From: Pseudo-nitzschia pungens
Lineage: Eukaryota > Bacillariophyta > Bacillariophyceae > Bacillariales > Bacillariaceae
DNA length: 64,000 bases
Reading direction: 5' to 3'
Assembly: GCA_037355855.1 (NCBI GenBank)
Contig: CM074759.1
Span: 5,456,001-5,520,000 of the forward strand
Under the pieces are notes generated by a model. The model was given only the letters and a program-made list of their open reading frames with translations. It was not told the origin of the DNA and ran no database searches. Numbering within the stretch: the first letter of the stretch is position 1; each line of letters opens with the position of its first letter. Of the stretch, positions 25,405-63,639 are shown one piece after another. A program made the position numbers and the translations under genes.

Positions 25405-26960
25405 ATTAGAGGTAGGAGTCCTACACAAGAACCTGGGTCACTTGACTGTTAGCACCCTGTCGCTAAGCCTGTAACTAAGCCTGTTGCTAAGCCTGTTGCT
25501 TAGCACAAAGCCTAACACCTTGTAGATAGCTCGTCCTGTTGCTGGGGCTGATACCTGTAGACCTGGTACAGTCCCCTACACAGGAACCTTAGCATCTTGG
25601 ACGAGGTGACTATCAACATACAATAGACTTCCTCAGGCCATGTGTTCCTGATACTACATGTGCGGTCACAATTGGGTCAGGGCAGCATTTAGCAAGTGCA
25701 TTGTAGCAATCTTCCTTCTGACTATGCTTGGAATCCAGCTTGCTCCTCCAAGTATAAGTCATACTTTTCTTGAGGGCTTTTGGTTTGTTCCTGAACCTTC
25801 CGGAACTGTAAATATTTTTGCGTGAATCCCGCAATTTTTGAGTCAAACTTGTCAACTCACATCCCCCTTTCGGATAATTTGGGGGGATAAACTCGCACTT
25901 TTTCTCGCACTTTTTTTGAGACCAAAAAGTGCAAGTTTTCACCGGACTAAAAAAACGTTCTTTTTCAACTCGCATTAAATGCGAGTTTCGTTCAACGGAC
26001 AAAAAAAGTGTGAGTTTTCTTTGCAATTTTTTTTTTGACGAGGGAGTCAATATGTTAATAGAGGCGCAATGACGGAGTCGATTTGGTAAGAGAGGCGCAA
26101 CAATGCGGGAGTTGATTTGCTAAGAGAGGCGCAACGACGAGGGAGTTGATTTGTTTTAATTAAAATTATGCTACGAGTTTTTGGTTGAAATTTTTGTTGA
26201 AAACACTCTTTTTCCAAAGAAAACTCTGCATTTTTTAAAGAAAACTCGCATTTTACTGCTGAAAACTCGCATTTTGTAATGAAAACTCGCATTTTTCTGC
26301 TGAAAACTTGCGTTGATTGCTGTATATACGTGTTTTTTTTCTAGAGCAAAAATGCAAGTTTTTTAGTACCATAAAAATCCGTTCTTTTTTCGATCCCAAA
26401 AAATGCAAGTTTCTTTGGGGAGATAATAAATTTGAGGGGATACCCTCAAAATGACTAATGGAATAAGAAAATCGCGCAGTATGCGCATTGAAAACTAACT
26501 TTGTTCTGGAAGGTCCTGGGTTCAATGAGAATAACAAGTGAAGTCAATTGTGGATTGCTGGTATGCTGTGTGTCAAAAGAACAGGAAGTACATTGACAAA
26601 GAACACTGCACTGGGAACATGACATAACAGGAACATAAGAGGACAGTGGCAGAGAAAGAAAGATTAGTCTTGGGATTTAAATCAAGGTTTTTGTCAAGAA
26701 TGGACAAAACTGGCTCCAGCTTGACTGGTGTATATTGAATATTCACCTCCTCCAAGATGCTAAGGTCTCTGCGCTAAGATCCTGTGTAGAGATCTGTACC
26801 AGAGCTACAGGTCTTAGCGTTAGCAACAGGCTTAGCAGCAGGCTTAGCAACAGGCTTAGCAGCAGGCTTAGCGACAGGCTTATTTCAAGTGGTATGGGGT
26901 GCTACAGTCAAGTGACCCGGGTTCCCGTGTAAGATTTGTACCAGTTGTACATACCCCGGG
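25405..26960. mobile_element. Fold-back element with (AGGCTTAGCAGC)n arms
   Basis: The left arm (about 25408-25605) and right arm (about 26746-26945) are inverted copies: TACACA-GAACC-GGGTCACTTGACTGT outermost, a run of GCTAAGCCTG units, then TACACAGGA and CTTAGCATCTTGG innermost. The interior includes a second fold-back (25845-26460). Related arms occur at 49090-49165 and 63640-64000. No transposase is seen, so it would be moved in trans. Confidence 0.6.
25845..26460. mobile_element. Fold-back repeat with GAAAACTCGCATTTT units, copy 1
   Basis: The stretch is built of AAAACTCGCATTTT-like units at both sides and about four roughly 30-bp units with AGAGGCGCAACGACGGAGT in the middle (26035-26155), and ends in TTTGAGGGGATACCCTCAAA. 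A second copy in the opposite orientation, enlarged by a minisatellite, is at 51970-53770. Confidence 0.6.
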
Positions 26961-27080
26961 TATAGCACCGGCATTAGCACAATGTAGCTGAGTGCTACAA
27001 GGTTAGGGTTGCTAATGCTACGAGATACTGGATATGCTAACCTACCATGCTACTATGCTAACATACGATGCTACCGCCGG

Positions 27081-27480
27081 GGCCATCCGATGGTTTTATT
27101 TTGGCGCGGTTTTTGAGGACCGCGCGTAACTATAACCGTTAAAACCGTTATTAGACGTTAAAGTTATGCGTCTAAAAACTTTTTTAGACGCATAACTATG
27201 CGTCTAAAACCTTTTTTAGACGCATAACTATGCGTTTTTTTTTAGACGCATAATCGTGGGTTATGCGTCTAATATTAGACGCATAACTATGCGTCTAAAA
27301 AATTTTTAGACGCATAACTTATGCGTCTAAAACATGTACTAACGTGTGTACAATTCTACAGAGTTATGCGTCTAAAATTTTTTTAGACGCACAACTGGTC
27401 CAAATTAGCGTAGAACTCAGTAGTAAACTGAAGAATTTTTAGACGCATAACGCAAAAACACGCTGAACTCGAAATCAGCA
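27081..27480 (+). repeat. Left terminal and subterminal inverted repeat of H
   Basis: This is the GGCCATCCGATGG terminus followed by a hairpin GCGGTTTTTGAGGACCGC, then roughly ten copies of AGACGCATAA or its complement, often arranged head to head as TTAGACGCATAACTATGCGT. These are candidate transposase-binding sites. Confidence 0.8.
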
Positions 27481-27800
27481 ACCCAAAGCAAAGACGCACT
27501 AACTTGCTGCAACTCAGAATAATACGGTAAGATTACCGGTATCTTACCGTAAGACACACTAACTCGCTGCAACTCAAAAAAATAAAGAGGAGGAATAACG
27601 TAAGACACACTAACTCGCTGCAACTCAAAATCAAACACACTAACTTGCTGCAACTCAAAATCAGACATCAGACACACTAACTCGGCGGAATTCAAAATCA
27701 GAAACACCAACTCGTCGGAACTCGTCGGAATTTAAAATCAGACGCACTAACTTGTCGTAACTCAATCAGACACACCAACTCGTCGGAACTCGGAAAAATA
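27481..27800 (+). repeat. Imperfect tandem repeats inside the left end of H
   Basis: About eight to nine degenerate units of roughly 30 bp are present, typified by CACACTAACTCGCTGCAACT followed by CAAAATCAGA. They lie only on this side of H. Confidence 0.6.
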
Positions 27801-28008
27801 TGACACACAAAACGATGGCAACCTATGCTGATCTAAAACAATCTGGATTACAGCGATACAGTCCATACAGAAACATTGATCTAGGATAAACTGGAGTACA
27901 GCGATACAGTCCATGGTTCACTTACTACCTCTCTAACAATCTGATCCGAACCACCTTACCTAACCTCACTTCACCTCCCCTCGATCCGGTCCCGTCGGAA
28001 AATTGAAC

Positions 28009-28803
28009 ATGGTAAGAATATCGCTACGCGCTGGAGTGGGCGCCGAAGCGTCAATCTTAACAAAATTCATCAAGCCGGAACAGTCGTGCCCACGTAAAGA
28101 TCACCGAAGCTGTGTTGTTTTGGACAGCGAATTTGAAGAGAACGGAAAGAAGTTCTATCGGTTTAGGTACGCTTGCGATCCATCAGGCCAGCTCATGCAT
28201 GGATTACGCCATTGGGTCAAGATTACGAAAGAAGGCAGTCCAGCTCATTACTTTGAAGATGGGCAAAGAGCACAAGAGAGATCATCTGATGCCGCATTTC
28301 AAGAGCCGAAAGTAAAATGGAAAAACTCCCTTGCAAGAAAATTGCTCTACAAGGACATGAAGGATAGGATTGTGCCTCTTGAAGCAGGAAGCTTAACGTT
28401 GAAGGAAATATATTTGATGCGTCCAGAATACGCTGAGTATGCTGCGTACGAAAAGTTCTCTTCTCGAGTTTCAGCCCTCCGGAAGAGCATCAAGAAGAGC
28501 ATATCAAGGGCCGAAGAAGATAAAGCTGCTTTCGATTTGTACGTCCAAAACAACAAAATATCTTATTACAGCCAGAAAGGCTATACGGAATGGCAGGGCT
28601 CTCAATCTCAGCAATTGCTACGAAAAGACATAGCCGAAGGACTTGTGGACCAGATGAAGAAAATGGAGTTATGGAAGTCTCGGGAAGAATACCATGGGGA
28701 GTATCCTTTGAATGTATTTCGTGACAAAGTCCATCAAGAGATCAGTACAGCGAAGTACCTTTACACCTTGAGAGTAAAGGGCAAGCAATACAAAAGTAGT
28801 TGA
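28009..28803 (+). CDS. H ORF1: LLYKD-family protein of unknown function
   Basis: The ORF encodes about 264 residues from the ATG at 28009 (MVRISLRAG). It is hydrophilic with no membrane segment. Its middle part has ARKLLYKDMKDRIVPLE, then LKEIYLMRPEYAEYAAYEKF and RVSALRKSIKKS, and the C-terminal part has GYTEWQGS, then LLRKDIAEGLVDQM and VFRDKVHQEI. The pseudogene at 62775-63540 shares all these blocks, so the family is conserved at protein level. I recognise the LLYKDI/EIY-PEY pattern as recurring in diatom genomes but know no function. It is the outermost ORF on the left of H and converges with ORF2. Confidence 0.75.
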   Translation: MVRISLRAGVGAEASILTKFIKPEQSCPRKDHRSCVVLDSEFEENGKKFYRFRYACDPSGQLMHGLRHWVKITKEGSPAHYFEDGQRAQERSSDAAFQEPKVKWKNSLARKLLYKDMKDRIVPLEAGSLTLKEIYLMRPEYAEYAAYEKFSSRVSALRKSIKKSISRAEEDKAAFDLYVQNNKISYYSQKGYTEWQGSQSQQLLRKDIAEGLVDQMKKMELWKSREEYHGEYPLNVFRDKVHQEISTAKYLYTLRVKGKQYKSS

Positions 28804-29710
28804 GCTAACTGTAGTCTAGCGTAGTCTAGCGTAGTCTAGCGTAGAGTAGAAAGCCCAGCGTAGAGTAAAAAATATATATAATCTAAAGTAAACCAATCAT
28901 GAACCAATCATGTAATTTTCCAACTCAGCAAGGAGGAAACTAGCTTCTTCCAATGTTTTGATCGGATCAAGCGATGAAGAGCTTAGCGAGTCGTCAATAG
29001 AGTGGAATGAACTGGTTTCAACATTATTATCTTGGAGTCATTCTGCCAACGGAGTTCGAATGTTGGGCGCAGGAGCCCCTTGCTTAGGAGGCATCGGAGG
29101 GTACTCTGCAATAGGGATCGGTGAAACAGGGATCGGAGAAGAGTTTTCTGCACGGATCGGTGAAGAGATTGGTGTGACATGATGCTCTACAAATTCATCC
29201 TGATTTGGTACAGTATATTTTTCGTATTGTTCACTCCCCTTAAATTCAAGTACTTCTCCAATTTCGCACATCATCGAGTAAGGGATTTGGGCCATGGCAC
29301 AATCGTGGGCGGGCTCCCCGTCAATGTAAACCTCGATATCCTCCTCATAGATCAGCGTGACTTGAAGTGTGCGCGGCAAAATCTGGTGTTCCTGAAAGAG
29401 TGCTTCTGGAACAGTGTAGTCATCATAAGCCCTGTCTGTTCCCTTAAAACGGAATACAGTACCAACTCTGGCTCTGACTTCTACATCAGTTCTTGGAGGA
29501 ATACTATAGATCGATCCATCATAGGAACAGTCGACTTGCCTTTCGCAATAAAATTTGACAGAAACCATGTAATCTTGCGAGCTCATTCGATTTTGTAGTA
29601 CCTTCTGAGAACGCTTGTCCTTGTTCTTCTTATCCATGCGCTCAGCTAAATCAGAGGCTTTGTTCTTTTGTTTATCAAGTTCTTGTACACTTCGACTCTT
29701 TTCTCGTTGT

Positions 29711-29892
29711 TGCCATACCCCGGGTCTACTAGTGATTAGAAAAGTAGTAGTGATATGCAAATTGTGAGCTCTATCAGTTAGTCTATTTGCTATCGGATCC
29801 AGCAGTCTCCAAATCGGCGATTCCGGAGACTCGCTAATCGTATTCTTACTCCAGTCCCGAGTGGACTCGTGACTGTATTTTGGTGCACGGCA
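29711..29892 (-). repeat. 3' LTR of element D
   Basis: This 182-bp copy is bounded by TGCCATAC and ACGGCA and preceded by GTTGT. Confidence 0.93.
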
Positions 29893-29910
29893 TACTCCTC
29901 CATGGTACTG

Positions 29911-32855
29911 TTACAATTTAATAGGATCCCTGCAATAATAGGGGTGTACTCTCCTAATGTTAACCCGGTCGGTTACAAAGGGAGCAGTTTCAATAGTTAC
30001 AGTTCCATTATCATGGGCCTTGAGCACCTTGTAAGGTCCTTGCCGTGGGAAGGATAGTTTTGGAATAATGCCCTTCCTTTCCAGGGTGACATAGTCTCCT
30101 TCTTTATAGACATGGGGGATCCTCTTCCGGTTTTCCCTGATGTTGCTCTTGTGGATGCTTTTCTGCTTCCTTGCTTGGATTGCTTCCCAATCCACTGGGA
30201 AGTTCACCGGCATGAACATGTCTCGACCAAACACCAGTTGCGCTGGGGAGTACCCCAGGGTGGTATGGATGGCGCTTCTGATAGCATATGCTGCCTTGGT
30301 GGTGAATTCCTCAAAAGGGTCCTCCTCGTGGAGGTCCCTGTTTTCCAGGTTGAAGGACAACAGACAGTCCTTTAATACCTGATGGATCCTTTCCAACACT
30401 GAGTTGGATTGTGGGTTCCAAGCCCCGCTGGGCTTTCTTTTCATCCCCATGTTCTCGCAGAGCTCTTGGAACTCTGCTTTGAACTCACTCCCGCCATCAA
30501 AGCCAATCTCCTTTGGGCGCGGATATCTTGCCAGCCAGGTACTGTCCAACAATCGTTGAGTTTCTGCTGCATTTGGGGAGTCCTTCAGGTGAGCCAGTTC
30601 AAACCATCCGGTCACTGGGTCCACCATGGTGAGGACATGGATTTGGTAGTCTTTACCATTTTTGTTGTGGACAGTTGCAGGTCCCCAGAGGTCCACATTG
30701 ACCCTCTGCCATTTGGTGACCTCAGCTGCTTTTTCCGGTAGTAGTCCATACTTCTTCCGGCCACTCTTCTTAAACATCTGACACGTGTGGCAGTGCTTAC
30801 AAAGGTCCTGGACGTCCTTCCGTAGGCCTTTCCAGGTGAAGACTGAGCGTATGCTCTGTTCCATTCTCTTTTCTCCGGGATGGACCAACATGCTGTGGTA
30901 CCATTCCATAACTCTATCCTTGAGTTTATCGGGAATCAGGATCTTTCCTTCTTTATGGATTAGGTTGTAACCTTCCACCATTTTGGTGGTTAGTCGATTG
31001 TCTTTTTCCAGAGCATTCACGATTCCTGTGTCCTGTTGCTGGTAGAACTGAATCATGTCCGGGGCAAGTGGGAATGCACTATTGCCCTGGAATTCTTCCG
31101 GCGCTTCTCCAAGCGGGAATAGGAGTTGAGCTGCGCCGAGTTCAGCTTCCGGGTGTAGAAACCAAGGGGCTTGCCATCTTGGCATACAGTTGCTCCCAGT
31201 TGCCTATCGCTGGCGTCTGAGTAGAGATGAAATGGTTTCGTAAAGTCCGGGAATGCAAGCTTAGCTTCATCTGCGAGCATCCTCTTCGCCTCCATGAAAG
31301 CTTTCTGCTCTGCTGGACCCCAATACCAGTTCATTTTGCCCTTTTTCCCTGCGAGTTTGTTCAGAGGGGCTAGGATGTGGGAGCGGCGCTTCCACATGTC
31401 CCTGTAAAAATTGACCATTCCAAGAAACATCTTGAGTTGCTTGGTGTTCTTGGGGGCTTCTAGTCGCTTCATCGCCTCCAGTTTCTTTGGCTGGGGCTGA
31501 ATGCCTGCTGTTGTTAACAGAAATCCCAGATATTCCACTTCTTTTTGCATGAAAAAGGATTTTCTGAGGTTGGCTCGGAAGCCAGCATCGTCCAGTCTCT
31601 GTAGGACTGTATCGATTTTGTGGAGGTGATCCTGTTCAGACTCGCCTTCCCTCTGTATGATTAGGATGTCATCGATATAGACGAGGACATAGTCCAGGTC
31701 CCCTAGTAGGTTCATCATGACTGACTGGAAGATATCGGGTGCGCATGCAATTCCCATTGCCAATCGTTTGTAGGCATATTTTCCCCATGGTAAAATGGTA
31801 GAGCAGATTTTCTGGCTCTCCTTGCAAATGGGAATGGTATAATATCCCTGGGACAAGTCAAGCGCCGTAGCTGACTTGAACTTTTGTAGTCTTTGGATCG
31901 TTTCCCCTATTCGTGGTAGTGGGAATGGTTTCCTTTGGATGGCTGCGTTCATCTTTCGAAAGTCGGTTAGGACGCGAATGTCCCCTGTCTTCTTGGGTTG
32001 ACAGAAGGTAGGGGATGCCCACGGTGAGTCGTCATCGTGGGGGAGTTTTTCCAGGACTCCAATATCACAGAGCCTGGTGATCTCCTTTCGGAGTGCTTGT
32101 TCAAAGGCATGGGGTACAGAATAGTACCTCTGCCGGACCGGTTTGACCCCTGGTTGGAGTTCAATGGACACCGGTTCTATATTTTTGAGCAGACCCAATC
32201 CTCCTCCAAAGAGTGTTGGGAATTTCTTCAGTGTTTTCTTCAGCGCTTCCTTGGACGCGTCTGTAATCTCCAGGTCATTGACCATAGCATCTATATCGAC
32301 TTTGGAGTAGTCGGCGTCCAGGATTTTGGCTTGCCTCTCTTCCTCTTGTTGGAGGATTGGACTTTGTGTGTTGGCAAAGAATACTGCCTCACATTTGTCC
32401 GGGTCAGAGAGCTCCCCCATCCCCTTCATGGGAATGGAGTCACCCTGCCATTCGATCGTACGGGAGCTGTATTTTATATCCAGTCCCAGTTGTGCCATTA
32501 GATCGGATCCTATAATCATGTCATAGGGTACTTCCTCATGGTGATGATACTCATCCACTTGGAAGGTCCATTTGATGGTCTTGGAGGTTGAAAATTCTAT
32601 CAGCCTTAGTCCCACTGAAGCCGCAGACTTGGTTCTGAACTTGCCTCCATATGTGTTGTAGGTGACAGATCTTTGGTCTCGGTTCGTTAGTTGACTTCGG
32701 TTGACAAAGTGCCTTAGTATGATGGATTTGGAGCACCCGGAGTCGAGTAGGCCCCGGAGCATCCTCCCCCTTCCCTTGTGGTCCAATACCTCCACACAGA
32801 CGTCCGCAAATCGATTGATTATGCGTGGTCCGGTGTGGATGGTATCAGGAGCCAT
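29911..32855 (-). pseudogene. Pol of element D with an RNase H deletion
   Basis: Protease (LLDSGCSKS) and RT (YIDD) are intact from 32855. Within RNase H the frame runs normally to KLNSAQLN and then, at about 31124-31130, jumps to the segment that in A encodes QLLFPLAEE, losing roughly 320 bp that include the HTDH part of the active site, and shifting frame. A shared CAACTC at both edges suggests a microhomology or template-switch deletion. Downstream the integrase frame (31185-29911) is open with its zinc-binding region, FDGGSEF, NSVLERIH and the GPY module. The first frame reads on to 31053 with a spurious tail. Confidence 0.92.
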
Positions 32856-34295
32856 TCAGTTGTGGGATCCTTTCTTTTTAAAGGTCTTTCTGTACTTTCT
32901 TCTGTACTCTTTGAGTTCCCGTTCGGAGATGTCGATCTCGTCGTCGGAGACTTCGTGGTCAGCTTGGGCCGTGGCCAGTACATAAGAGTACTCGTGGTTT
33001 GATAAGTTCCTTCCCCAGTGGGGTTTGGAGTGTTGCTCGTGGTCCGAGTCTTGTTCTTTTGCCACAAAGTGCTCCTTGAGCAAGTTGATGGTCTCCCGGT
33101 CGAACTTTCCCTTCTTGGGGGGTCCGCCGGTTAGTTTCCAGCATTTGCCGGCATGGACCTTGCCACAGGTCTTGCATAGCTGTTTGTTGCTGTTGTCCAC
33201 AGGGCGCTTCTTTTTGCCAGGGGATTTCCCGTGGTGGGTTCCTCCCCCAGATGCGGCCTTGGGGGTCTTCTTGGTGACACCGGTCTGCTTTTCGAGGTCG
33301 GTGATGCGTTGTTGCATTACTGCTTCCTTCCGGATGGTGAGTTCCAGATTTTCGAGCTTGTCGATAGTGGTGTTAAAGGAGTGGGTGTAGAGGTCCCAAC
33401 TAATGTGCTCCAGCTTCTCGCGTTGGGAGTGGGTCATGTTGGAATCCAGGATTTCCTTCATTTCTCCTTGGGTGAAACTTCTTGGTGTTTCCATTTGGTC
33501 ACTGCCACATTCCCAGAGGCATTCTGGGAGGTAGCTTTGGAGTTCGGCCATTCGATTGGCCCAGGCTCTAATGCCATGTTTGAGGTCCACGCGCATGCCT
33601 CGCATGAATCGGCGGAGGACGATATACGAGCGCTTGCCGTGTTGGTCATTGCCAAAGATTTTGAGCTTGAGGGAATGCATGCATTCCTCGATGACATCCT
33701 TTCTGTACTCCTGGGATTGGTAGTACTGGATGAGGGCGCTTGCGACCTTTTTCTTTGGGATTGGAGACTCGAGGTTGTCGGTCTCCGATTCCTTGTCGGA
33801 TCTCGCCGTGGCTGTGTCGGTTTTGTCGGCGGTTGGAGATTTCTCCTTTGCCGTCTCCTTGGAGGCTCCCGTGGGAGTTTCGGTGGCGTCTTGCCCCATT
33901 GATAGTAGTATGTTTGCTTGGTCCCTTTGCTCGATCTCTTGGATCTTTTTCTGTACGTGTCTGGTGTGATGGACCTTGTGGGTTGGTTCGGCCAAGTAGG
34001 TCCGAGCGAGCGTTCGCTGGACAAGTCCGAGTGCCTCAATAGAGAGGATTCTCTGTAGAACCTCCAATTTCTGGTCTCCGTTGAGTTTGTCATTGCCAGC
34101 AATTTTCTGGTCAAAGTCTCTCTGCCAGATAAGGAAGAGTTCTGGTCTCTCAGTACCATTGAGAACCTTCAGGTAGTCGCTGAATGCGATTCCACCTTGT
34201 TCGCTGTCTACGTTCATCTTTACGGTGTTGGCGTCTTCCGGCCAGTCCTCCCGTGTGATGTTGAAAGGTTTCAGTTTGGTTCCTTTGGTCGCCAT
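32856..34295 (-). CDS. Gag of element D (intact)
   Basis: This 479-residue Gag is homologous to that of B but diverged in the linker (residues 120-170) and near the knuckle. The knuckle variant reads CKTCGKVHAGKC (C-x2-C-x3-H-x3-C) and the C-terminus ends KKKGSHN. The UGA stop is followed at once by the pol ATG in the same frame. Confidence 0.9.
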   Translation of the reverse strand: MATKGTKLKPFNITREDWPEDANTVKMNVDSEQGGIAFSDYLKVLNGTERPELFLIWQRDFDQKIAGNDKLNGDQKLEVLQRILSIEALGLVQRTLARTYLAEPTHKVHHTRHVQKKIQEIEQRDQANILLSMGQDATETPTGASKETAKEKSPTADKTDTATARSDKESETDNLESPIPKKKVASALIQYYQSQEYRKDVIEECMHSLKLKIFGNDQHGKRSYIVLRRFMRGMRVDLKHGIRAWANRMAELQSYLPECLWECGSDQMETPRSFTQGEMKEILDSNMTHSQREKLEHISWDLYTHSFNTTIDKLENLELTIRKEAVMQQRITDLEKQTGVTKKTPKAASGGGTHHGKSPGKKKRPVDNSNKQLCKTCGKVHAGKCWKLTGGPPKKGKFDRETINLLKEHFVAKEQDSDHEQHSKPHWGRNLSNHEYSYVLATAQADHEVSDDEIDISERELKEYRRKYRKTFKKKGSHN

Positions 34296-35033
34296 GGTGA
34301 TTTAATCAGTTGTTTATTAAGTTACTTTAGTTACACTATTTCTGTTATCTTTGCTGCTTGTGTTGAAATTGAGCAAAAAGTGATTGCTCAGTTCCTCCAG
34401 TTCTTTTGCTGGATTTTTACACTGTTCTCGTGATAACTCGTGTTGTAACTGATTTTCCCCCTGGTTTGTCCAGTGGTGGGAGTTGTTTCTCTCTTTAGTT
34501 CCCGGGAATCCTGTGGTTCTCCGGAGTTGCTTCTGTTTTTATTTTGTGGGATTCGATTCCCGTGGTTCTCCGGCGTTGCTTCTCTATTAAGCGTTCACCG
34601 GGCCGGTCCCACTTCCCGTTTCCCGTGGGATTGGTGGTGTTTAGGTATTCATTATATACCTTTCCGGATATCCGTATACTTCGGTTTTGGTTGGCATTCC
34701 CTATTCGGTCTGTCCATCCACTCAGTGTTGGTCCAATTAGTCCACTCACTGGATTATGTGTCACTTTTTCGACACTTATTTCATTATTTCTTTGTTCGAT
34801 TATTTCTGCTGTCGACCATGGTCCTGTTTAGGTACTTAGGTGTCTCTGTTGCTGCTGTTGCTCCCTTCTTTGGGCGCCAACAGTTGCTGGGGTTGGTCTT
34901 CCTTGTGCTGCAGACACTGGATATCCTTCTCCCTGTTTTTGCTTCTCTGCGCCTCCATTTTTGGCAGTCTTTCGGTCTCGTCGGCGCCTTGGCCGATCGA
35001 TCTCTTTCTGCTCATGGTCATCAGCGCTCAGCT

Positions 35034-35047
35034 TGATTTTAAAATCA
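35034..35047. promoter_or_regulatory. LTR-adjacent palindrome of element D
   Basis: TGATTTTAAAATCA directly abuts the 5' LTR of D, as in A, B and E. Confidence 0.6.
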
Positions 35048-35229
35048 TGCCATACCCCGGGTCTACTAGTGATTAGAAAAGTAGTAGTGATATGCAAATT
35101 GTGAGCTCTATCAGTTAGTCTATTTGCTATCGGATCCAGCAGTCTCCAAATCGGCGATTCCGGAGACTCGCTAATCGTATTCTTACTCCAGTCCCGAGTG
35201 GACTCGTGACTGTATTTTGGTGCACGGCA
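35048..35229 (-). repeat. 5' LTR of element D
   Basis: This 182-bp copy, identical by eye to 29711-29892, is followed by GTTGT. Confidence 0.93.
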
Positions 35230-35914
35230 GTTGTGCCCTGCGAAGTTGGGCTTCGTCAGATTTATTCTTTGCCTTTTGGACCGAAGCTGCCCGCTCAGCT
35301 GCTTCACTCGGGTTTGGGGCAATCTGGGCTGCGTCGGCTAGCTCCGTCAAAAAATCATTGTCCACACGCTGAGCCTGCTCTAACTCTCTTTGTCGAGCGT
35401 GGTCATCCTGCTCTAACTGAAGTTGTCGAGCTTGCTCAGCCTGCTCTAACTCGTACTGGTGGCGTCGAGCTTGCTCAGCCTGCTCAAGGCGTCGAGCTTG
35501 CTCAGCCTGCTCTAACTCGTACTGAAGTTGTCGAGCTTGCTCAGCCTGCTCTAACTCCTGATGACGTCGAGCTCGCTCAGCCTGCTCTAACTCTCTCTGA
35601 CGTCGATCACGCTCAAACCGCTCCATCCTCTCTTTATGAAGTCGAGCTTCCTCAGCCTGCTTCATCTGCCATCGGACATACTCTTCCTTCTCTGCCTCTC
35701 TCTGACGTCGAGCACGCTCAGCCTCCTCCATTTTCTGACGTCGAGCACGCTCAGCCTCCTCCATTCTCTGACGTCGAGCACGCTCAGCCATCTCTCTCTG
35801 GTGTCGAGCACGCTCAGCCTGCTCCATCATCTTAGCCTTATCTAACAAAGGTAATAAAGTGATGTGAGAAAAATTCAGTTTACTTTATACTGTGTAAGAA
35901 TATCCAACATTGAT

Positions 35915-37207
35915 CTACCACGCACCTCCCATACCTTCATCATCATCTCCAAATGAAAGCGAACCCCACTGTTCGATGCAGCCTTCAATGTCCTCCTCGA
36001 TAGAAGATTCTACTTGGATGTCTACGATGCTCTGCTCGACAGCAATCTCATAAGAAACAAATGGTAAAAGTTGGCTTGTTTTCCCTGAGAATTCGGTTTG
36101 GCATACACCAAAATGTCGCTTGAGTTTCAAGCCATGGGAATCATCGAAACCATGATTGAAGAACTGATTTGTAACAGTCATTCCATGCGGGAACCTATAG
36201 TGGCGGACAACAGTTTGTCTTCCTTCAGTATTCATGCGGGTTCGAAAGACCTCGTAACTTTCGTAAGTCTTCTGGCATCGTGGCACCATTTTTTTCTGTT
36301 TTTTTGATTCTGTCATGTCCATGCAGAGCCTATCAATATCTTCAGTTAGAAAGAACGGTTGTAGTGGAGAGCGGATAAAGACACCCCTTCGATCCTCACT
36401 CAGCCAGGCTTCGTACATTATAGGTTGAGTTGAGCGAAAGTCGCGTATGTCGATGACAGGTTGATGGATTGTGATCTTTTCCATTCTTTTCGAAACCATT
36501 CCAGATGCAGCTGGATAAGAAACACGAACATCTCGAGTCAGCATTACCTGGATGCCTTGGTGTGCTTCAGGCTGTTCTAAGTTGATCTGAAGCTTTTCAG
36601 ATGTCTCTTCATCGCCATTGCGAATACTTCGGCTTCGAGCACTCATGGTCACCGGAGTTGAGGCGAATCTAGTGGACTTGGGAGTCGTCTTGGGAGTCGT
36701 CTTGGGAGTCGTCTTGGGAGTCGTCTTGGACGGAGGTCTAGAGAGGAGTTTAGGTGACTTGCTGGATGCCTCCCGTGAGTGGAACAGATCCCTTCTAGGT
36801 TGCGTCTCGCTGTCGCTGTCTATGTCACTGTCACTTTCCGAAGCCACACTTTCCGAAGCCACACTTTTCGAAGCCACACTTTCCGAAGCCACACTTTCCG
36901 AAGCAACACCTCCCGAGGTCACACTTCCTGGAACTCCCTTCGGAAACAATTTTCGGTTGATATTGGTAAACTCACCCTTTTTCTCCAGCTTTCTCCAATA
37001 ATTTACTATATTGCGAATCTGCGTCCGCGCTTCTGATTTCGGAGGACCGTAAAGTTCTTTATTGCCGTCAAGGATTTTCTGGAGCACTCTATTCGACCTG
37101 TCTTTGCAAACTTTGTCAATCCCTCCCTCTGCAATGATATCGAGGTAAAGTCTTTGTCGGACAAAAACTGGTAGAGATGATTGTTGTCCGCGCCGATCGA
37201 CTGTCAT
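35915..37207 (-). CDS. H ORF3: 430-residue protein with tandem VASES and TTPK repeats
   Basis: I do not recognise a family. The N-terminal 95 residues look like a small helical domain (RQRLYLDIIAEGG, then RTQIRNIVNYWRKLEKKGEF) that could bind DNA, which is inference only. Residues about 100-125 are VASES repeats, an acidic Ser/Asp stretch follows, and residues about 155-180 are TTPK repeats. The C-terminal 220 residues form a distinct region with FRSTQPIMYEAWLSEDRRG and a later HFGVCQTEF, ending in an acidic tail. It lies 85 bp upstream of ORF2 on the same strand. As a second conserved-looking protein near a Harbinger-type transposase it is a candidate DNA-binding partner. Confidence 0.68.
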   Translation of the reverse strand: MTVDRRGQQSSLPVFVRQRLYLDIIAEGGIDKVCKDRSNRVLQKILDGNKELYGPPKSEARTQIRNIVNYWRKLEKKGEFTNINRKLFPKGVPGSVTSGGVASESVASESVASKSVASESVASESDSDIDSDSETQPRRDLFHSREASSKSPKLLSRPPSKTTPKTTPKTTPKTTPKSTRFASTPVTMSARSRSIRNGDEETSEKLQINLEQPEAHQGIQVMLTRDVRVSYPAASGMVSKRMEKITIHQPVIDIRDFRSTQPIMYEAWLSEDRRGVFIRSPLQPFFLTEDIDRLCMDMTESKKQKKMVPRCQKTYESYEVFRTRMNTEGRQTVVRHYRFPHGMTVTNQFFNHGFDDSHGLKLKRHFGVCQTEFSGKTSQLLPFVSYEIAVEQSIVDIQVESSIEEDIEGCIEQWGSLSFGDDDEGMGGAW

Positions 37208-38322
37208 CTGATATTATGAAATGAGAATCGCGAAGCAAAAACGCAACACATTTCTTCAGCCGCTACTTTCCTAGTAAACCTTGGACCACCATCAGCTTAG
37301 AGTACGGCGGAATACTTCTTATTCCTTCTTTCACTCGTTCAATCCGGCATTGCACTGCTCAATGGAATCCACGATGAAAGGGCCGTTAGTTCTTTTCCTT
37401 CTTTTCGTATGGTAAGGTTAACCTTACCGTAGTCTTGCTTCAACCAAGTTTTTGATTACTGGAAATTACTCCTAATAAGCAGCTGTCAAACGGTAAACCT
37501 TACGGTAGATTATTGAAAATAATAACTTCTCACCAGCTGTCATCAGTAATTTATGTGCATCTGATCGTGGATTGTCAACGTGGTACGTAATTAAGATTAC
37601 TACTACTTCGTAAATTTTACTGTGCGCAGGGCCGTGATACGGTGGGAGAGCAAGTCAGGCCGTGATGCGGTGGGAGAAAAGGCCATATAGCCCAAGTTTT
37701 TTTAAGCATACCAGTTTTGGTATGTACCGTACTGATAAACCTTACTCAACGGGCCGACTGAGTTTTCACATGTAAGATTACGGTAACTTAAGACTTACTG
37801 GTTCGTGTTGATACATAGTGATACTCAACGCGCCTACTGAATTTTCACGATTGCTTTGTTTTTTAAAACAAAATTGTTGATACCGGTAAGGTCTTACGTC
37901 CACGACGGTCTGTTGTAAGGTTACTTAAATATTGTGACTGATAATCTACTCATACATAACTTACTCAACGGGCCTTACGTACAATCATGTTGGGATGTCC
38001 ACGACGGAATCCCGTGTCTGTTGTTTTTTGTGTTCTTTCTACAACCATGTAGTTGCCAATTGCAACATGCCGGCATGTGGATTTGTATTCTGCTATGGAA
38101 TTGTGATTCCCACAAAGAACTTGTGCTTCCCACGATGAACTTGTAATTCCCACGATGAACTTGTAATTCCCACGATGAACTTGTTTTATTTCAAGGTTGG
38201 CTATGCTATAGCGGTAGTACGTCGAATGATTCTTCACAAGCTGTGCAAGCATCAGGTGCTGTGTGATATTTTCGCTTTTCTTCAGCGTTCACACTCTGGC
38301 CTCATAATGTAGAATTCTCATC
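37208..38322. other. Intergenic region inside H between divergent ORF3 and ORF4
   Basis: No ORF is supported. It is rich in palindromic TACCGTAAG/CTTACGGTA-type motifs (for example 37405-37430 and 37730-37800), has a 26-bp direct repeat with GGCCGTGAT-CGGTGGGAGA at 37629-37683, and about four copies of a 22-bp unit with TTCCCACGATGAACTTGT at 38105-38182. It may hold divergent promoters. Confidence 0.5.
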
Positions 38323-39534
38323 ATGTCATCCTCATCCGAGAACAGCCTCGAGGGGCTGACGGATCAACAGTTGCAAATAATTCTACGAACCTGTAAGGGC
38401 ACTGACCTGGAAAGGAAAGCTGAGAATGAAGTGTTGGCTAGGTGCAAACGCGAAAATGATGTTCCTTTCGAGATCAAATCGCCGGAAGCTTCTGATGAAT
38501 CATCAGAACGCAGCAATGAGTTTGATAGGGCTATCACCAAGCTTAGTATGATCATCACCAGAACCGAAGAAGTCAGAGAAGCATGTATTGACACAGTTTC
38601 CCGTGTCTTGGACGAGTTGAAAACTGCCGCGGACGCCGTTGAAGAAAGCATCACGCAGGCGAAGCTTTGCAAGAAGAGGCGGGCTTCGCAATCGCTATCC
38701 ACCAACAAGAAGAAAGCAGCGAAGACCGACCCGACCGACGCTCAAGCAAAGACCGCCGCTCAAGCAAAGGCCGACGCTAACGCAAAGAAGAACTACCGGT
38801 ACATGGAAGACGATACCCCGGATGACATCGATTTTATGGAGAATCAGAGGAGAGCTCCAAAAATTGGTCTAAACTACGAGAGGGTAACGGATCAAAACTT
38901 CGGCAATAGCCGTTGTAACAGTGTTGCACCTGGAAGTGCCGTCAATCTTTTTTCGAAATCCAGGTGGGTTTTCGATCCCCACAAACTATCGTCTTTCAAC
39001 CTAAGCAACAACCCCGATTGGAAGCTTGTCCCTAATGCTAGCATAGCCATGTACGCATTTTACAAATCGATGCCACAACCCAAGCCAAGGAAGTGCAATC
39101 TGGAAAGAATGAACGGTATTGTGGAGAGTAACAAGGACGTCATGACCACTGAGTCGTCTATCGATTACTTTATGTCCCAGTTCCCATCCATGAGAAAAAT
39201 AAGCAGCATTGATTTGTGCGGACTGCTTACATCTCAGCCTGGAGATGGGGAAGTCTTGCATGACCCTACCCAGAACACTGTCGTCGTCTTTTGGTTGGGG
39301 GGTAACGATTTGAGATACCACTTTATGTTGTTCAATGCCAGGAAATCTCTGTTCCTCCCGATGTATGGTTGGGATGGTATTTATGTTGGCAAAAACGTCC
39401 TCGATGATGCTCTCCTTAGGAATGAGAAAGAGGTTGTCCGTGTTCTGGCACCTCATATTTGCAACAATAAGAATGCCTCCAATCATCCACCAATTTTTGT
39501 TGGTGCATGGCAGCTTGATTGTGAGGATGTTTGA
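38323..39534 (+). CDS. H ORF4: 403-residue protein of unknown function
   Basis: The N-terminal part is a Ser/Glu-rich helix region (SSSENSLEGLTDQQLQ) followed by a probable coiled coil at about 65-115. A basic patch resembling a nuclear localisation signal follows (KKRRASQSLSTNKKKAAK), then an Ala/Lys/Gln/Asp repeat (AQAKTAAQAKADANAKK). The C-terminal 200 residues form a compact domain with SKSRWVFDPHKL, VVVFWLGGNDLRYHFMLF and FVGAWQLDC. No known motif is recognised. The frame is intact. A role with the transposase is inferred only from position. Confidence 0.68.
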   Translation: MSSSSENSLEGLTDQQLQIILRTCKGTDLERKAENEVLARCKRENDVPFEIKSPEASDESSERSNEFDRAITKLSMIITRTEEVREACIDTVSRVLDELKTAADAVEESITQAKLCKKRRASQSLSTNKKKAAKTDPTDAQAKTAAQAKADANAKKNYRYMEDDTPDDIDFMENQRRAPKIGLNYERVTDQNFGNSRCNSVAPGSAVNLFSKSRWVFDPHKLSSFNLSNNPDWKLVPNASIAMYAFYKSMPQPKPRKCNLERMNGIVESNKDVMTTESSIDYFMSQFPSMRKISSIDLCGLLTSQPGDGEVLHDPTQNTVVVFWLGGNDLRYHFMLFNARKSLFLPMYGWDGIYVGKNVLDDALLRNEKEVVRVLAPHICNNKNASNHPPIFVGAWQLDCEDV

Positions 39535-39599
39535 TCAAAAGAGTTTTTTCCTTGATATAAGCGGTCTGATAATGTCCCGTCAAGAGTGGTTGAGAGTGG

Positions 39600-40030
39600 T
39601 TGAGTCACTGACAAGGATGTTCCTTTCCCCGGCAAGTCCGAAAATGTTCCGTTGTTCCTCAGTAAGATAGCTTGTCTGTTCTTCACTTTCGGTGATATAC
39701 TTTCAAGTCCGACCATTTCCCGCTGAGTTTCCCTATTCTCTCTTCACTTTCGAATTTCAAGTCCGAACATGTTCCGCTGTTCCCCGGCAAGATACCTTGC
39801 CTGTTCTATCTTCACTTATGGTGATATATTTCCCGCTGAGCTTCCCTGTTCCGCTGTTCCCTGGCAAGATACCTTGCCTGTTTTTTCTTATATTTTCAAC
39901 TCCGAACATGTTCCGCTGTTCCCCGGCAAGATACCTTGCCTGTTCTTCACTTTCGGTGATATAAATCGTCCGTTCCGCTGTTCCACGACAAGATACCTTG
40001 TCTGTTCTTTCTTCACTTTATTATAATCTA
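39600..40030. repeat. Minisatellite between convergent ORF4 and transposase
   Basis: About five degenerate units of roughly 60-75 bp share TTCCGCTGTTCCCCGGCAAG, then ATACCTTGCCTGTTC and CTTCACTTTCGGTGATATA. There is no ORF. Confidence 0.7.
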
Positions 40031-40085
40031 TTGAAAAATTTCATACTTTACTTCTCCGTTAGGTAGAACAATTATAGCAGCTTAT

Positions 40086-41093
40086 CTACATCCATTCCGC
40101 TCCCACCTCGGCGTATAAATCTTGTTCTGGTTCATTGACCAAGTCATCGATGAGTATATCGTAAAGGGGCTCATTGATTTCAATTTTATACTGGCATATT
40201 ACACAAACGGCTTCGAATGCAAGAGGAAATTTTTTCAAAGGATGCCGGAATCTATCACGGAGAATTCTAAACACCTTTGTCTTCCCATTGTAGTCTTCGT
40301 GACGTTTAAGCGCTCGCGCCTTAAATCTTTTCACCCCATATTCATCGTGTGCATTTGGGGTTGATGCAGTCTCGTTGTGCCCACGATAGCCTCCATCTCC
40401 GATACATTTCTTGCCAAGATATGTAAGACGCTGCTCTAGCCCTTTTTCGACAAAGATGGTAACATCATTCTGACCAGCTTTAAATGGTCCATTCATCCAG
40501 ATCAGCTTGCTTGAAGCTAGAGCGATGCCAAGTTCGTAGTTTATGCCAGCTTTGTTGAATTTATGGCTAAAATACTCCCGATCTTGGGAAAAGTTTGGAT
40601 ACCCCGGTTCCGCAATCCAGCAATGAGTGCCATCAACAGTCATAATCCAAAGATCGTCCCCTCCCAGATCATCTGGCCAGGTAATTTTTTTGGCTTTCAA
40701 AAGTTGGATTCGTTCAATGATGTCCCATATTTTGTCACGTGCATGGGATATATTCATGTTGAAATGTCTTTCAAATTCATTTTCAGTCGGGTAATTTCTC
40801 AAGTAATACATCGTCCTGAGGAACCACTTAAAATTGGTGTAGGAAGCCGGCAAACGCATTTCTCTTGGGGGATCGCAGGTATCCTCCAAAAAATCATGCG
40901 CAACTAAATCTTCGTATATATAGCACAAGACTGTTGGCGATGCGCCGAATGCGGAGTTAAACCGGTCATAATTTGCGGATGGTTGGGACCGCTCTATCTG
41001 TCTTGGCGTGAATCCTGCAAGAGTAAGCCCTTGATGTAGCATTGCATCGGGGTGCATAACGTGGTCATCTGGATATTCTACATTGTCCGCCAT
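40086..41093 (-). CDS. H DDE transposase (Harbinger/IS5-like, DDE_Tnp_4 type)
   Basis: This 335-residue transposase has an RNase H-like catalytic triad: first Asp in IMTVDGTHCWI near residue 154, second Asp in CIGDGGYRGH near 242, and Glu in LKRHEDYNGKTK near 274, followed by FRILRDRFRH. The N-terminal part (residues 70-145) is helical, with NFKWFLRTMYYLRNYPTENE and ISHARDKIWDIIERI. Length and motif spacing suit a complete Harbinger-type enzyme. It is the rightmost ORF of H, about 400 bp from the right subterminal array, with no stop or frameshift. It should cut and join the GGCCATCC termini. Confidence 0.85.
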   Translation of the reverse strand: MADNVEYPDDHVMHPDAMLHQGLTLAGFTPRQIERSQPSANYDRFNSAFGASPTVLCYIYEDLVAHDFLEDTCDPPREMRLPASYTNFKWFLRTMYYLRNYPTENEFERHFNMNISHARDKIWDIIERIQLLKAKKITWPDDLGGDDLWIMTVDGTHCWIAEPGYPNFSQDREYFSHKFNKAGINYELGIALASSKLIWMNGPFKAGQNDVTIFVEKGLEQRLTYLGKKCIGDGGYRGHNETASTPNAHDEYGVKRFKARALKRHEDYNGKTKVFRILRDRFRHPLKKFPLAFEAVCVICQYKIEINEPLYDILIDDLVNEPEQDLYAEVGAEWM

Positions 41094-41479
41094 GTTGGAT
41101 CGATGGAAGTTAAGTGAGCTTTCATCAAACTATCGCACCCTGTTTCATTTGTTAATACGTACGTCTAGGCTGAAGCTGGATAGGTTAAGGCAGGCCTAGT
41201 GTACCGGTACGGATACGGTAAACCTTACTGTCGACGAGGCCAGGATGGATTGAGAGGTCGAGGCCAGGATTAAGGTCGAATGTTTTTGTTCGAAAGAACA
41301 AAAAAGAATCCAAGTGATTGTAACTTACCGTAGGTTACCGTAGGTTACCTTAGGTTACCGTAAGATTACATGAACGAGAATGACTCGCAACTGTGCTTCT
41401 ACTACGTATTTTTTATTAGGCTGCGCTAGAAAGAACAAACCCAAGTTATTGCAACTTGCAGTTACTTGGGTCGTGTCAC

Positions 41480-41861
41480 GATTTCGAGAACGACTCTTGT
41501 GCGTCTAAAACTTGTACCAGGCTACGTAGGATTATACAAGACAATGCGTCTAAAAAATTTTTAGACACATAATTATGCGTCTAAAACTTGTACTAGCCTG
41601 CGTACGATTATACGGGGCCAATGCGTCTAGACGCATAATTATGCGTCTAAAAAAATTTTAGACGCACAGTGCGTCTAAAGTTAGACGCAAGACGCATAGT
41701 TATGCGTCTAAAAACTTTTTTAGACGCATAGTTATGCGTCTAAAAACTTTTTTAGACGCATAGTTATGCGTCTAAAGTTAACGGTCGTTAACGGGTTTTA
41801 ACGGTTATAACTTTTGGCGCGGTCCTCAAAAACCGCGCGAAAATAAAACCATCGGATGGCC
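41480..41861 (-). repeat. Right terminal and subterminal inverted repeat of H
   Basis: This is the inverted counterpart of 27081-27480: arrays of AGACGCATAA/TTATGCGTCT in head-to-head hairpins, then GCGGTCCTCAAAAACCGCGC and the terminus CCATCGGATGGCC. The TSD CGG follows. Confidence 0.8.
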
Positions 41862-43229
41862 CGGGGTGGGGTCGTTGGTGTACTATTAGTACCATGACCG
41901 GATACCTGACCCAGACAGTTCTTAAGTTAGCACACGAGCAAGCGAGCTAGCGCTAGCATATGATTAGATCCAATCTAATTAAGCGCTAACGCTACTCCGT
42001 GCATTGCGCTACTCCGTAGAATACAGTACTAAGCCTACAGCGCTGTACCCTGTATGCTAATCCACTACGCTACTCCACTCTGTACAAGCCTACAGGATTA
42101 CAGTACTGAGTGGATACGAACGAGTTCTCCTTTTAGATTCGCTCCGGAGCTCAGCGCTTCAGCTCAGCGCTTTGCTCACTCTTTTCTTTTCTATGTAAAA
42201 TAAAACACCATCATGCCCTCCACTTTCGATTGATCCCGATGTACCTCTAGGGGAGTACCTTGTAGTATTTGAGTGTATGTAATAGTATTTGAATCAGTAT
42301 CTTCTGTAGACTCACGATTTGCCAGCACACAACGTGCCCTTGTTGTTGCTGTTTCAGTATAGTTGACCCTACGAATTACAAGCAGTTTATTCTACGAGTC
42401 GAACTACTACGGATTGAAGTTACGAGTCAAGTTGCCGACGGGCATAAATATCAACGCAGGTGCTCATGTTGTCACTGTCCAAAACTAATTTGTGTAGAAT
42501 TTGTACCAGGCCTCCATTGGTTAGAAATGAACAACAATATTTTGGGATTTTGGCCACGGGAGGGCTTACTAAAGGGGTCTGTAGCTTAGTTGCCAAGTCA
42601 TGGATAGCAATATTGGTATACTCTGCCAGTAGAATGTAACTATTAATATATAATTCACATGTTACTTGGGTGAGTTATGGCATCCCTTACTAAGCGGGAA
42701 ATTTGTTTAAAAAAAATAATGTTCACTACCTTCGGATTTTTGACTTGCAAGCACTCGTACCGGTAAGCCTTACTCGGTTTCTTATTCATACTGTAATTAC
42801 GGTAAATTACTCTACTACGTACGTAGTACGTAGTACTGTTGTTATCGGAATGTACATCGTCTGTCCGTCTAAACGACTAGGAGTAGTGGTAGATTTTCAT
42901 GCAAAAAATTAATGATTCTTCTGATGTTTTGGCCGGATTTGAGAGGCTGCAGGCAATCAATCAATAATACGGGTATTCCTACGATTTTGATAGTCGAGAC
43001 GGGTCATGACGTTTATCCAACAATTATCTTTTCCTGAAGTGAGATCTCAAGTTAGTAATGGAAAGGGATAACTTCTGCTGAGGGGATCACAAGAATAAGG
43101 CCACGAAAAGTTCATAGCACCATCTACAGCCTTCACAAACTGATATTGTCTAAATTCAAACTCAATTGACATTGCGACTGGGTCGCATGACACCTGCCAA
43201 TCCCAAATTTTTGCATCACGGCAACAACC
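41862..43229. other. Intergenic region with dispersed repeat copy 2
   Basis: 42213-42462 is a longer relative of the repeat at 1-175. The rest has short repeats (CTACTCC, GCGCTA and TACGTAGTA motifs) and no supported gene. The last part is presumably the promoter of the acetyltransferase gene. Confidence 0.45.
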
Positions 43230-61443: not shown

Positions 61444-62757
61444 ACTAGTTCACAAACAACCAAAACAGAAACAGGAGGAGTTAGCTTTCAAACTCCAACA
61501 ACAGGATCCAAAAGGACAGCACATTCTGCTAGAAGGTCGGCAAAGTCACAATGGTCGCCACACAGACGCCGCAATAGAAGGTCTTCACAGACGGGTAGTC
61601 TTCAGACGGGCAGTCTTCAGAATTTGGTGGACAGTCAACTGCTCAATCTTTTGCCACTCCTTCAGGCTTTGGTGGAGCAAGCTCTTCTGGTTTTGGTGGA
61701 TTTGCTGCAACTACTGCTTCGGGTTTTGGGTGGACAGTCTGTGGCAAGCTCATCTGCTGCAAGTTCATCGCAACCATCTTTTGCTTCGAGACAGTCATCG
61801 CAAACCATCTTTTGCTTCGAGACAGTCTGCTGCAAGTTCATTGCAACCATCTTTTGCTTCGACTGCCACAAGGTCATCCAACCATCTTTTGCTTCGAGAC
61901 AGTCTGCCACAAGCTCATCACAACCGAGACATTCTGCTGCAAGCTCATCGCAACCATCTTTTGCTTTGAGACAGTCATCTTTTGCTTCGACTGCCGCAAG
62001 GTTGTCACAACCACCTTTTGGAGAGGAGTCTGCTGCAAGCTCACAACCATATTTTGCTTTGACTGCTGCAAGCTCATCACAACCATCACAGCCATCTTTT
62101 CTCATTTGTGGAGGGGGAACTTTTGGTGGGCACGGTCAGCTTGCTAGAGTAAACTCTCCTGATGAGCAACACATTAGTAACAACCGTCCTGCAGCCAGTG
62201 AGCAAGGAACTGATCGTCAGGAGTCCAACAACCGTCAGGAGTCCATAGATCTTCCACCAGCCCCATCTCCGCCAAACCCGCTCCATCTCCGCCAGCTCCA
62301 TCACCGTCTCCATTTCAAGAACATAGTCAAAAAGAAATTGATGAGATGCTTGAGGACATTGAACTGCCAAATATTACTGTAGATTGGTTCTCACCGCCTG
62401 GAAATCCTGACCAGCGCAAGCCCCCATCACCCAGTCCTCTTGACCAGCGCAAGCCCCCACCACCCGGTCCTCTTGACCAGCAGCGCAAGCCCCCATCACC
62501 CGGACAGAAGCGCAACAAGGCACCACAGCCCACCAGTTCTGATGATGAGGATGAGTTTCCAAAACGTCCTCCTGGTCAATTTCGTAGAAATAGGCTTCGT
62601 GAAAGACTCCATGGCAAGGTTGGTACTCCTGGTAATCCTGTGTTCATCAGTACAACAGTATGTGTAGGGGACAAGAAGCTGAAATCTAATCACAATCCGA
62701 ACAGTGTTGTCATTGATGATATTCATACTAACATTTGGTCCAATAAATCGAAGTAAA
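61444..62757 (+). pseudogene. FG/Ser/Gln-rich ORF, frameshifted
   Basis: Switching frames gives an FG-rich stretch (ATPSGFGGASSSGFGGFAAT near 61660-61720), then several 14-residue repeats of the type SAASSSQPSFASRQ encoded by a 42-bp minisatellite (61745-62100), a linker, and an intact acidic/Pro-rich C-terminus (62310-62757) with EIDEMLEDIELPNITVDWF, PPSPSPLDQRKPPPP repeats and SSDDEDEFPKRPPG. The FG and Ser/Gln composition resembles nucleoporins, but composition alone is weak evidence. At least two indels break the frame. It converges with the LLYKD-family pseudogene, as ORF2 converges with ORF1 in H. Confidence 0.55.
61745..62100 (+). repeat. 42-bp minisatellite encoding SAASSSQPSFASRQ
   Basis: About seven degenerate units contain CTGCAAGCTCATCGCAACCA and TCTTTTGCTTCGAGACAGT. 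Indels between units change frame. Confidence 0.75.
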
Positions 62758-62774
62758 CTTTGTAAATTATATTT

Positions 62775-63540
62775 TATGCATATTTGTAAGTTGCCTGCTT
62801 GCCCTTTGTTTTTAATGTGTAAAAGTATTTTGATGGACGAATCTCTTGTTTAAAACCTTGTCACAGAATACATGCAGGGGGAAAGCTAAATATTTGTCTC
62901 TTGATTCCCATAGATCTTTCTTTTGACTTCCAAATTCCTCCACAATTCCATCTTCAATGTCTTTCAACAACAATTTCTGCTGTTCCGACCCCTGCCATTG
63001 AATATAGCCTTTGTAACTGTAATATGAAATGGGGTTGTTTGCAATAAATAATTCAAAAGCTTTTTGGTTGGCCTCTGCTCTTTGATTGCTGATTTGATTG
63101 TTTTGGGAAGGCTACTCAATCTACTTGAGAACCTACTGAAGTGATATTCCGCATATTCTGGATGCATCAAATATATTTCTTTTAGCGGTATTGTAATCCT
63201 CCAGTTATAGTCTTTGGGTTCAAGAGGAACTACTCCGTTCATTATATCTTTGTACAATAGTTTCTTTGCTTTTGAATTTGCCCATGGAATACTAGGTTCT
63301 TGGTAGACCATTACTAAAAAAAAAGCATCGGATCTCCTTCTTTGACAACCTTCAGAAAACTGGGCAGGGTCCAGTCATGGTGGAAACAAAATCTTCGTTT
63401 CCTGATTCATTGTCATGAAGATAACAAAACTCATACTCATTTCCTTTGCGGCCTAGAAGCACTATGTTGCTCCGATGCTGTGGATTCGGAAGTAATTGAA
63501 GAGGTTGATATATTTCTTAAGAGTTGTTGCTGCTTGAGCT
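62775..63540 (-). pseudogene. LLYKD-family pseudogene, homologue of H ORF1
   Basis: Read on the minus strand through several frames, it has FLKVVKEGDPMLFF, then AKKLLYKDIMNGVVPLE, LKEIYLMHPEYAEYHFSRF, GYIQWQGSEQQKLLLKDI and KQEIRPSKYFYTL. Each aligns with a block of the protein encoded at 28009-28803. At least three frameshifts and internal stops (upstream of 63312 and near 62995 and 62830) show decay. No H-type terminus is seen to its right within the window. Confidence 0.8.
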
Positions 63541-63639
63541 AAAAAAACCGATCCTGCTCTTAATTTCTGTGTTGTCGGCATTTTCACGGTTCACCGGAAA
63601 GTTGATGTTGATACGTGAGTATGAAGATATCCAGGGTGC

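Follow-up and report, generated by a model that had tools for sequence, protein, structure and literature searches.

A probable CWG-targeting PIF/Harbinger transposon with recurring companion genes in the diatom Pseudo-nitzschia pungens

Introduction

In the portion of Han et al. 2015 (PMC4482050) available to us, the PHIS superfamily is sorted by target duplication into PIF/Harbinger (TWA), NuwaI (CWG) and Pangu (ANT), and NuwaI is described from 16 animal genomes, mostly with two open reading frames (ORFs), a length of about 4.5 kb and a terminal inverted repeat (TIR) usually starting with GGG. The second ORF of NuwaI carries a Myb/SANT domain, and the role of the Harbinger companion protein is called unknown in the same portion of the source (PMC4482050). 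Here we describe an element at positions 27081–41861 of a 64,000-nt stretch of the genome of the diatom Pseudo-nitzschia pungens (the window; contig C2, 5456001–5520000). The element is very probably a cut-and-paste transposon of the PIF/Harbinger (PHIS) type that targets CWG, measures about 9.3 kb without a nested long terminal repeat (LTR) retrotransposon and holds about four genes, the doubtful ORF4 included, with the products of ORF1 and of a joint ORF3/ORF2 gene as putative binders of the element ends or of chromatin. Its components, from left to right, are iterons, ORF1 (+), ORF2 and ORF3 (-), ORF4 (+), the transposase (-) and iterons again.

A first-pass annotation, made from the letters alone, had proposed a Harbinger-like DNA transposon of five genes at this place, and had suggested searching the genome with its terminus, looking for sites where a single CGG replaces it, profiling its proteins and looking for other copies in which the ORFs co-occur between such termini.

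Results

Termini and insertion site

The element, with the termini GGCCATCCGATGG...CCATCGGATGGCC, is delimited by its inverted arms, by 32 paired copies with the same ends and by empty sites. The left TIR lies at 27081–27125 (+) and the right TIR at 41817–41861 (-), within a pair of inverted arms (27077–27125 and 41817–41865) of 49 nt that are 96% complementary, and the 3-bp duplication CGG is present on both sides (27078–27080 and 41862–41864, like the whole element without an assigned strand); both the ends and the duplication were thus located correctly by the first-pass annotation. When the flanks of the window copy were joined with a single CGG, many places in the genome matched, the best with 96% identity over all 260 bases, and at three fetched places GCCGGGGT runs without a break across the point at which the element would be inserted, so that paralogous empty sites with one CGG do exist. 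Because the termini are paired with matching flanks and empty sites are found, 27081–41861 is one insertion, into repeated sequence. Tandem repeats of 12 bp, TTAGCAACAGGC and TTAGCAGCAGGC, were also observed at 26820–26879 and 63740–63830 of the window, close to the sequence that forms the insertion site, itself repeated dozens of times across the genome.

Subterminal iterons composed of TTAGACGC/GCGTCTAA palindromes were observed at 27148–27451 on the left and 41496–41780 on the right, neither with a strand. The motif occurs 13 times in 27081–27480 and 12 times in 41480–41861, and zero times in 27481–29710, in 35230–41479 and in the remainder of the window; the LTR element was left out of the count.

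The nested LTR retrotransposon occupies 29711–35229 (5,519 bp), carries gag/pol-like ORFs on the minus strand, has identical LTRs of 182 bp (29711–29892 and 35048–35229) and is flanked by a 5-bp duplication, GTTGT. Without it the element measures about 9.26 kb, in agreement with the earlier estimate of 14.8 kb with the insertion and about 9.3 kb without it, and the retrotransposon is absent from the corresponding place in two other copies, L044 and L039. Relatives of this retrotransposon were also detected inside or beside L040, L041, L048 and L078, short derivatives of the element family among them.

Copies in the genome and target preference

The genome searched comprises 66.9 Mb in 28 contigs. 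It encodes silicon transporters, as befits a diatom host: PF03842 gave 11 matches, every one above the cut-off (best 775 bits), whereas none of 14 control genomes reached it. The searches score the best candidates only, so the counts given are lower bounds. A pattern search with the terminus (≤2 mismatches, whole genome) returned 85 matches, 41 forward and 44 reverse, compared with 2 matches for the reversed control pattern. Loci (designated L) were fetched around many, not all, of the 85 matches, and 32 paired elements with ends like those of the window copy, itself included, were obtained; no second terminus was recognised in L044/45, L046/47, L048, L049, L077 and L078, which stand outside these pairs. 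GGCC is present at both ends in 31 of the 32 paired copies, the right end of L074 being AGCC. Identical 3-bp flanks were observed in 29 of the 32 pairs, with CAG in 14, CTG in 12, CGG in two and CCG in one (L059 and L063 share flanks and represent one insertion duplicated, yet are counted as two of the 29), and the identity stops there, reaching a fourth base pair in none of the 29. The duplication was CAG or CTG in 26 of these 29 and TWA, the classical PIF/Harbinger duplication, in none. The target is CWG, and CGG is a minority form; the first-pass annotation was therefore right that the target is not TWA, while its CGG is not the typical target. With its GGCC termini and 3-bp duplication, the element inserts as a unit.

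Most of the pairs, 27 among the 32, are short derivatives of 409–1,593 bp that share these ends and hold no genes. One of them, L050 (C1:4309168–4309999, 832 bp), has landed inside a larger truncated copy of the family, where it separates the ORF4 gene from the ORF3 gene. A longer element with the same family's ends and a CAG duplication, L042/L043 (C7:2437875–2448866, 10,992 bp), is flanked by an ORF1 relative (C7:2436685–2437044) and an ORF3 relative (C7:2448889–2449386), as if it lay inside another family's element.

The transposase

The transposase gene (40086–41093, -) is open and encodes 335 aa with the triad D154, D233 and E266. It matches DDE_Tnp_4 (PF13359) with E=7.1e-9 and 35.9 bits against a cut-off of 24.8, and when it was aligned with relatives, 120 from databases and 6 from the P. 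pungens genome, the triad residues proved conserved in 125/126 (D154), 126/126 (D233) and 122/126 (E266). The open frame, the domain match and the conserved D-D-E bear out the annotation of a complete DDE transposase, and the domain match, together with the termini, the empty sites and the co-occurrence of genes described below, supports that of a Harbinger-like DNA transposon. Where relatives of the element's proteins are named, most are gene models of Pseudo-nitzschia multiseries. In a more distant transposase, of what we call the 36% family (L022:1498–2553), a lysine replaces the catalytic glutamate, a state seen in 4 of the 126 aligned sequences.

Companion genes

ORF1 (28009–28803, +) encodes 264 aa and has 32 relatives. 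Its predicted structure (mean predicted local distance difference test score, pLDDT, 83.3) has an N-terminal SH3-like barrel, which as modelled resembles Tudor and chromo domains, and a helical unit present in two tandem copies. The ratio of non-synonymous to synonymous substitution (dN/dS) between copies is 0.10 and 0.15 for ORF1 (2–3 non-synonymous and 5 synonymous changes, hence few) and 0.17 for the transposase (likewise few, 4 and 6), and both genes look constrained between copies. The Pfam profile search gave DDE_Tnp_4 for the transposase and no Myb/SANT match for the companion ORFs tested or for the 32 members of the ORF1 family; fold searches with the helical parts of ORF1 and ORF3 were uninformative.

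ORF3 (35915–37207, -) encodes 430 aa with a predicted helical N-terminal domain and is the probable first exon of an ORF3/ORF2 gene; it has three relatives in P. multiseries and, within the P. pungens genome, relatives in other families. The upstream part of ORF2 (35230–35841, -), with coiled-coil-like repeats, would be exon 2 up to the LTR insertion, and the downstream part (29038–29710, -) is severed by the LTR element; in L044, ORF2 has an uninterrupted frame of 437 aa. A candidate GT-AG intron of 93 nt (35842–35934, -), with alternatives of 84 and 123 nt sharing its acceptor, joins ORF3 to ORF2 in frame in the window copy. The P. multiseries models P0153, P0154 and P0155, presumably ab initio predictions judging by their names, match ORF3 and also ORF2 (pairwise E 1e-21, 4e-27 and 4e-43), so that ORF2 lies within the same protein in all three ORF3 relatives found. 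Since these models join the two ORFs and the intron keeps the frame, ORF2 and ORF3 probably form a single gene split by an intron, and the five genes of the first-pass annotation are reduced to about four.

ORF4 (38323–39534, +), of 403 aa, is open here and in L045, but its coding status is doubtful. Open frames had been reported for the transposase, ORF1, ORF3 and ORF4; all four are indeed open, while ORF4 bears no sign of purifying selection between copies and may be either fast-evolving or non-coding.

Co-occurrence of the genes

The same gene order is common to five copies of the element's own family (family 1), whole or partial. L039 (C2:3880186–3889124) is 8,939 bp long, has CTG on both sides and both termini, lacks the LTR element and holds relatives of all the ORFs in the order of the window copy, the frames of ORF2, ORF3, ORF4 and the transposase being broken; a second copy with the ORFs between such termini thus exists, with several of them decayed. 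In L044/45 the frames of ORF1, ORF2, ORF3, ORF4 and the transposase are all open; this copy also holds an extra insertion of about 8 kb, and its right terminus was not recognised. The copy at C3:4009–4019 kb keeps the order with broken frames, all but ORF2 having been checked, and that at C1:4307–4321 kb keeps the order ORF4, ORF3, ORF1 and left terminus, the transposase not being found nearby.

Beyond family 1, transposases of about 59% identity (family 2) are adjoined by ORF1 relatives with 49–56% identity, and L079 (C9), the one copy of this family whose interior was read, contains an ORF3 relative in two pieces. The right ends of family 2 show GGCC beside CAG or CTG in five copies, two of which share a flank, and a sixth, more distant copy shows GGTC beside CTG. 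In the 33% family, hhalign gave an ORF1 relative with a probability of 97% (E 3e-10), and the genome search gave a relative of ORF3 at 30% identity (E 1e-7 to 1e-5). In the 36% family, three transposases have weak ORF1 relatives nearby (30%, E about 1e-6), and one has a weak relative of ORF3 (E 8e-4). In P. multiseries, an ORF1 relative (73% over 62 residues) and an ORF3+ORF2 model are numbered consecutively, 40156 and 40157, and from this numbering would be neighbours.

For a proximity count, matches less than 5 kb apart were merged, which reduced 33 rows to 28 loci for the transposase, 20 to 19 for ORF1 and 15 to 11 for ORF3; the ORF1 relative of the 33% family is left out of this count. A transposase relative lies within 20 kb of 13 of the 19 ORF1 loci and 9 of the 11 ORF3 loci, against an expected 1.7% per locus; the copies are not independent, so the fair unit is the four families. 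Genes of the ORF1 and ORF3 types are found alongside relatives of this transposase, and the earlier suggestion that the unfamiliar ORFs travel with the enzyme holds in several copies and families.

These observations bear on two other explanations. That separate insertions and host fragments came by chance to lie between two termini, with functionally unlinked ORFs, would fit the fact that the window copy does hold one unrelated insertion, the LTR element, and that other copies hold further ones; this is extremely improbable, since the order is repeated in L039, which has both termini and no LTR element, in L044/45 and partly at the C3 and C1 copies, and since ORF1 and ORF3 relatives are present beside transposase relatives in three other families. 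It is also very unlikely that ORF1 and ORF3 are recently captured host chromatin genes, carried as cargo rather than as transposition factors: host chromatin proteins often have Tudor and chromo domains, to which the predicted ORF1 barrel is similar, but the proximity counts above speak against it, as does the identity of ORF1 between families 1 and 2, which is near that of the transposases, as for old partners.

Other remnants were detected apart from these. At 62346–63590 the window contains a remnant of family 2, of which 62346–62744 (+) is 81–90% identical to a family 2 protein, next to a decayed ORF1 relative (62795–63368, -). A further companion, which we call ORFX (174–445 aa, no Pfam match), was found at L012, L032–L037 and L079, and is common to two other transposase families with 25–34% identity.

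Discussion

The transposon proposed here would work by the ordinary steps of its class. The transposase would cut the ends and join them at C^WG with a 3-nt stagger. By analogy with other Harbinger elements, in which a Myb/SANT partner brings the transposase to the ends and is required for movement in the systems studied, the ORF1 and ORF3/ORF2 proteins may bind the subterminal iterons, chromatin or both and so bring the transposase to the ends, and the same proteins would move the short gene-less copies in trans.

Several observations weigh against a transposon in which all these genes take part. Three of the 32 pairs (L060, L074 and L075) have unlike flanks, CTG/CAG twice and CTG/TTG once, and 6 of the 19 loci of ORF1 and 2 of the 11 of ORF3 lie more than 20 kb from any transposase relative. 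Taken one piece at a time, the likeness of ORF3 to its counterpart in family 2 is weak (L079; hhalign E 1e-4 and 2e-3), and that in the 33% family is unsupported by hhalign (E 0.03, partial sequence). Relatives of ORF4 were found in family 1 only (6 match rows, in-genome search), and its dN/dS is 1.58 against L045 and, against L039, 3.24 for the first piece and 0.67 for the second. As the dN/dS values of ORF4 and of the downstream part of ORF2 (1.46, against L044) exceed 1 and that of ORF3 is only 0.61, not all the ORFs need be required.

The element could instead be an ordinary one of NuwaI type, with a transposase and one DNA-binding partner, either ORF1 or ORF3 as a diverged Myb/SANT-like protein, and with the remaining ORFs as passengers or decayed. 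The CWG duplication is the same as that given for NuwaI in the available portion of PMC4482050, constraint is not seen in ORF4 or the ORF2 part, and the tandem helical units predicted in ORF1 could be diverged Myb-like repeats. Against this stand the lack of a Pfam Myb/SANT match for these ORFs or the ORF1 family, the recurrence of both the ORF1 and the ORF3 types beside transposase relatives, and a size and TIR start unlike the NuwaI description there (PMC4482050), and we consider it rather unlikely. Within the reading that we prefer, a multi-gene CWG-targeting transposon, a more specific version is possible, though we put it forward tentatively and with some doubt: a CWG-targeting diatom Harbinger lineage may have swapped the Myb/SANT partner for a machinery of several proteins, namely ORF1, with its Tudor/chromo-like barrel and duplicated helical domain, and an ARID-like coiled-coil ORF3/ORF2 protein, which would together recognise the iterons at the ends, as well as chromatin, and so assemble the transposase or choose targets.

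Some algae of this kind are transformable. The question of the companion's role becomes testable in a lineage that offers two recurring, apparently non-Myb companions, dozens of short derivatives and clear end iterons.

Comparison with known systems

No description of a multi-gene or diatom Harbinger element of such a kind was found in the literature searched, which included the accessible portions of PMC12477816, PMC2806351 and PMC3212892, most subscription journals and Repbase lying outside the search. Two stramenopile systems come near by host and superfamily, as far as the available portions of the sources describe them: the Harbinger-like elements of Thalassiosira pseudonana likewise have a diatom host (PMC2806351), and the Harbinger elements of the brown alga Ectocarpus differ in that the autonomous elements have two tail-to-tail genes and ANT or TNA duplications (PMC12477816). 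With classical PIF/Harbinger, as outlined in the accessible part of PMC4482050, the element shares the superfamily, a DDE_Tnp_4-type transposase, a 3-bp duplication and the expectation of a companion DNA-binding ORF, whereas the classical elements have TWA, two ORFs and about 4.1 kb, and the present one has CWG.

The closest likeness is to NuwaI, again by the same part of that source (PMC4482050): both have a PIF/Harbinger DDE transposase, a CWG duplication and a companion ORF beside the transposase. Unlike NuwaI, the present element resides in a diatom and not in animals, measures about 9.3 kb (8,939 bp in L039) and not about 4.5 kb, has about four genes and not two, starts its TIR with GGCC and not, as is usual there, with GGG, and gives no Pfam Myb/SANT match. 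The DDE_Tnp_4-type domain, the D-D-E triad and the TIRs with a short duplication are features of the PHIS superfamily, in which, going by these descriptive features, we file the element as CWG-targeting and not as a NuwaI member. The class of mechanism is ordinary, and the unusual part is the pair of companions that recurs across several families. The element extends CWG targeting beyond animals, the sole hosts given for NuwaI in the available portion of PMC4482050.

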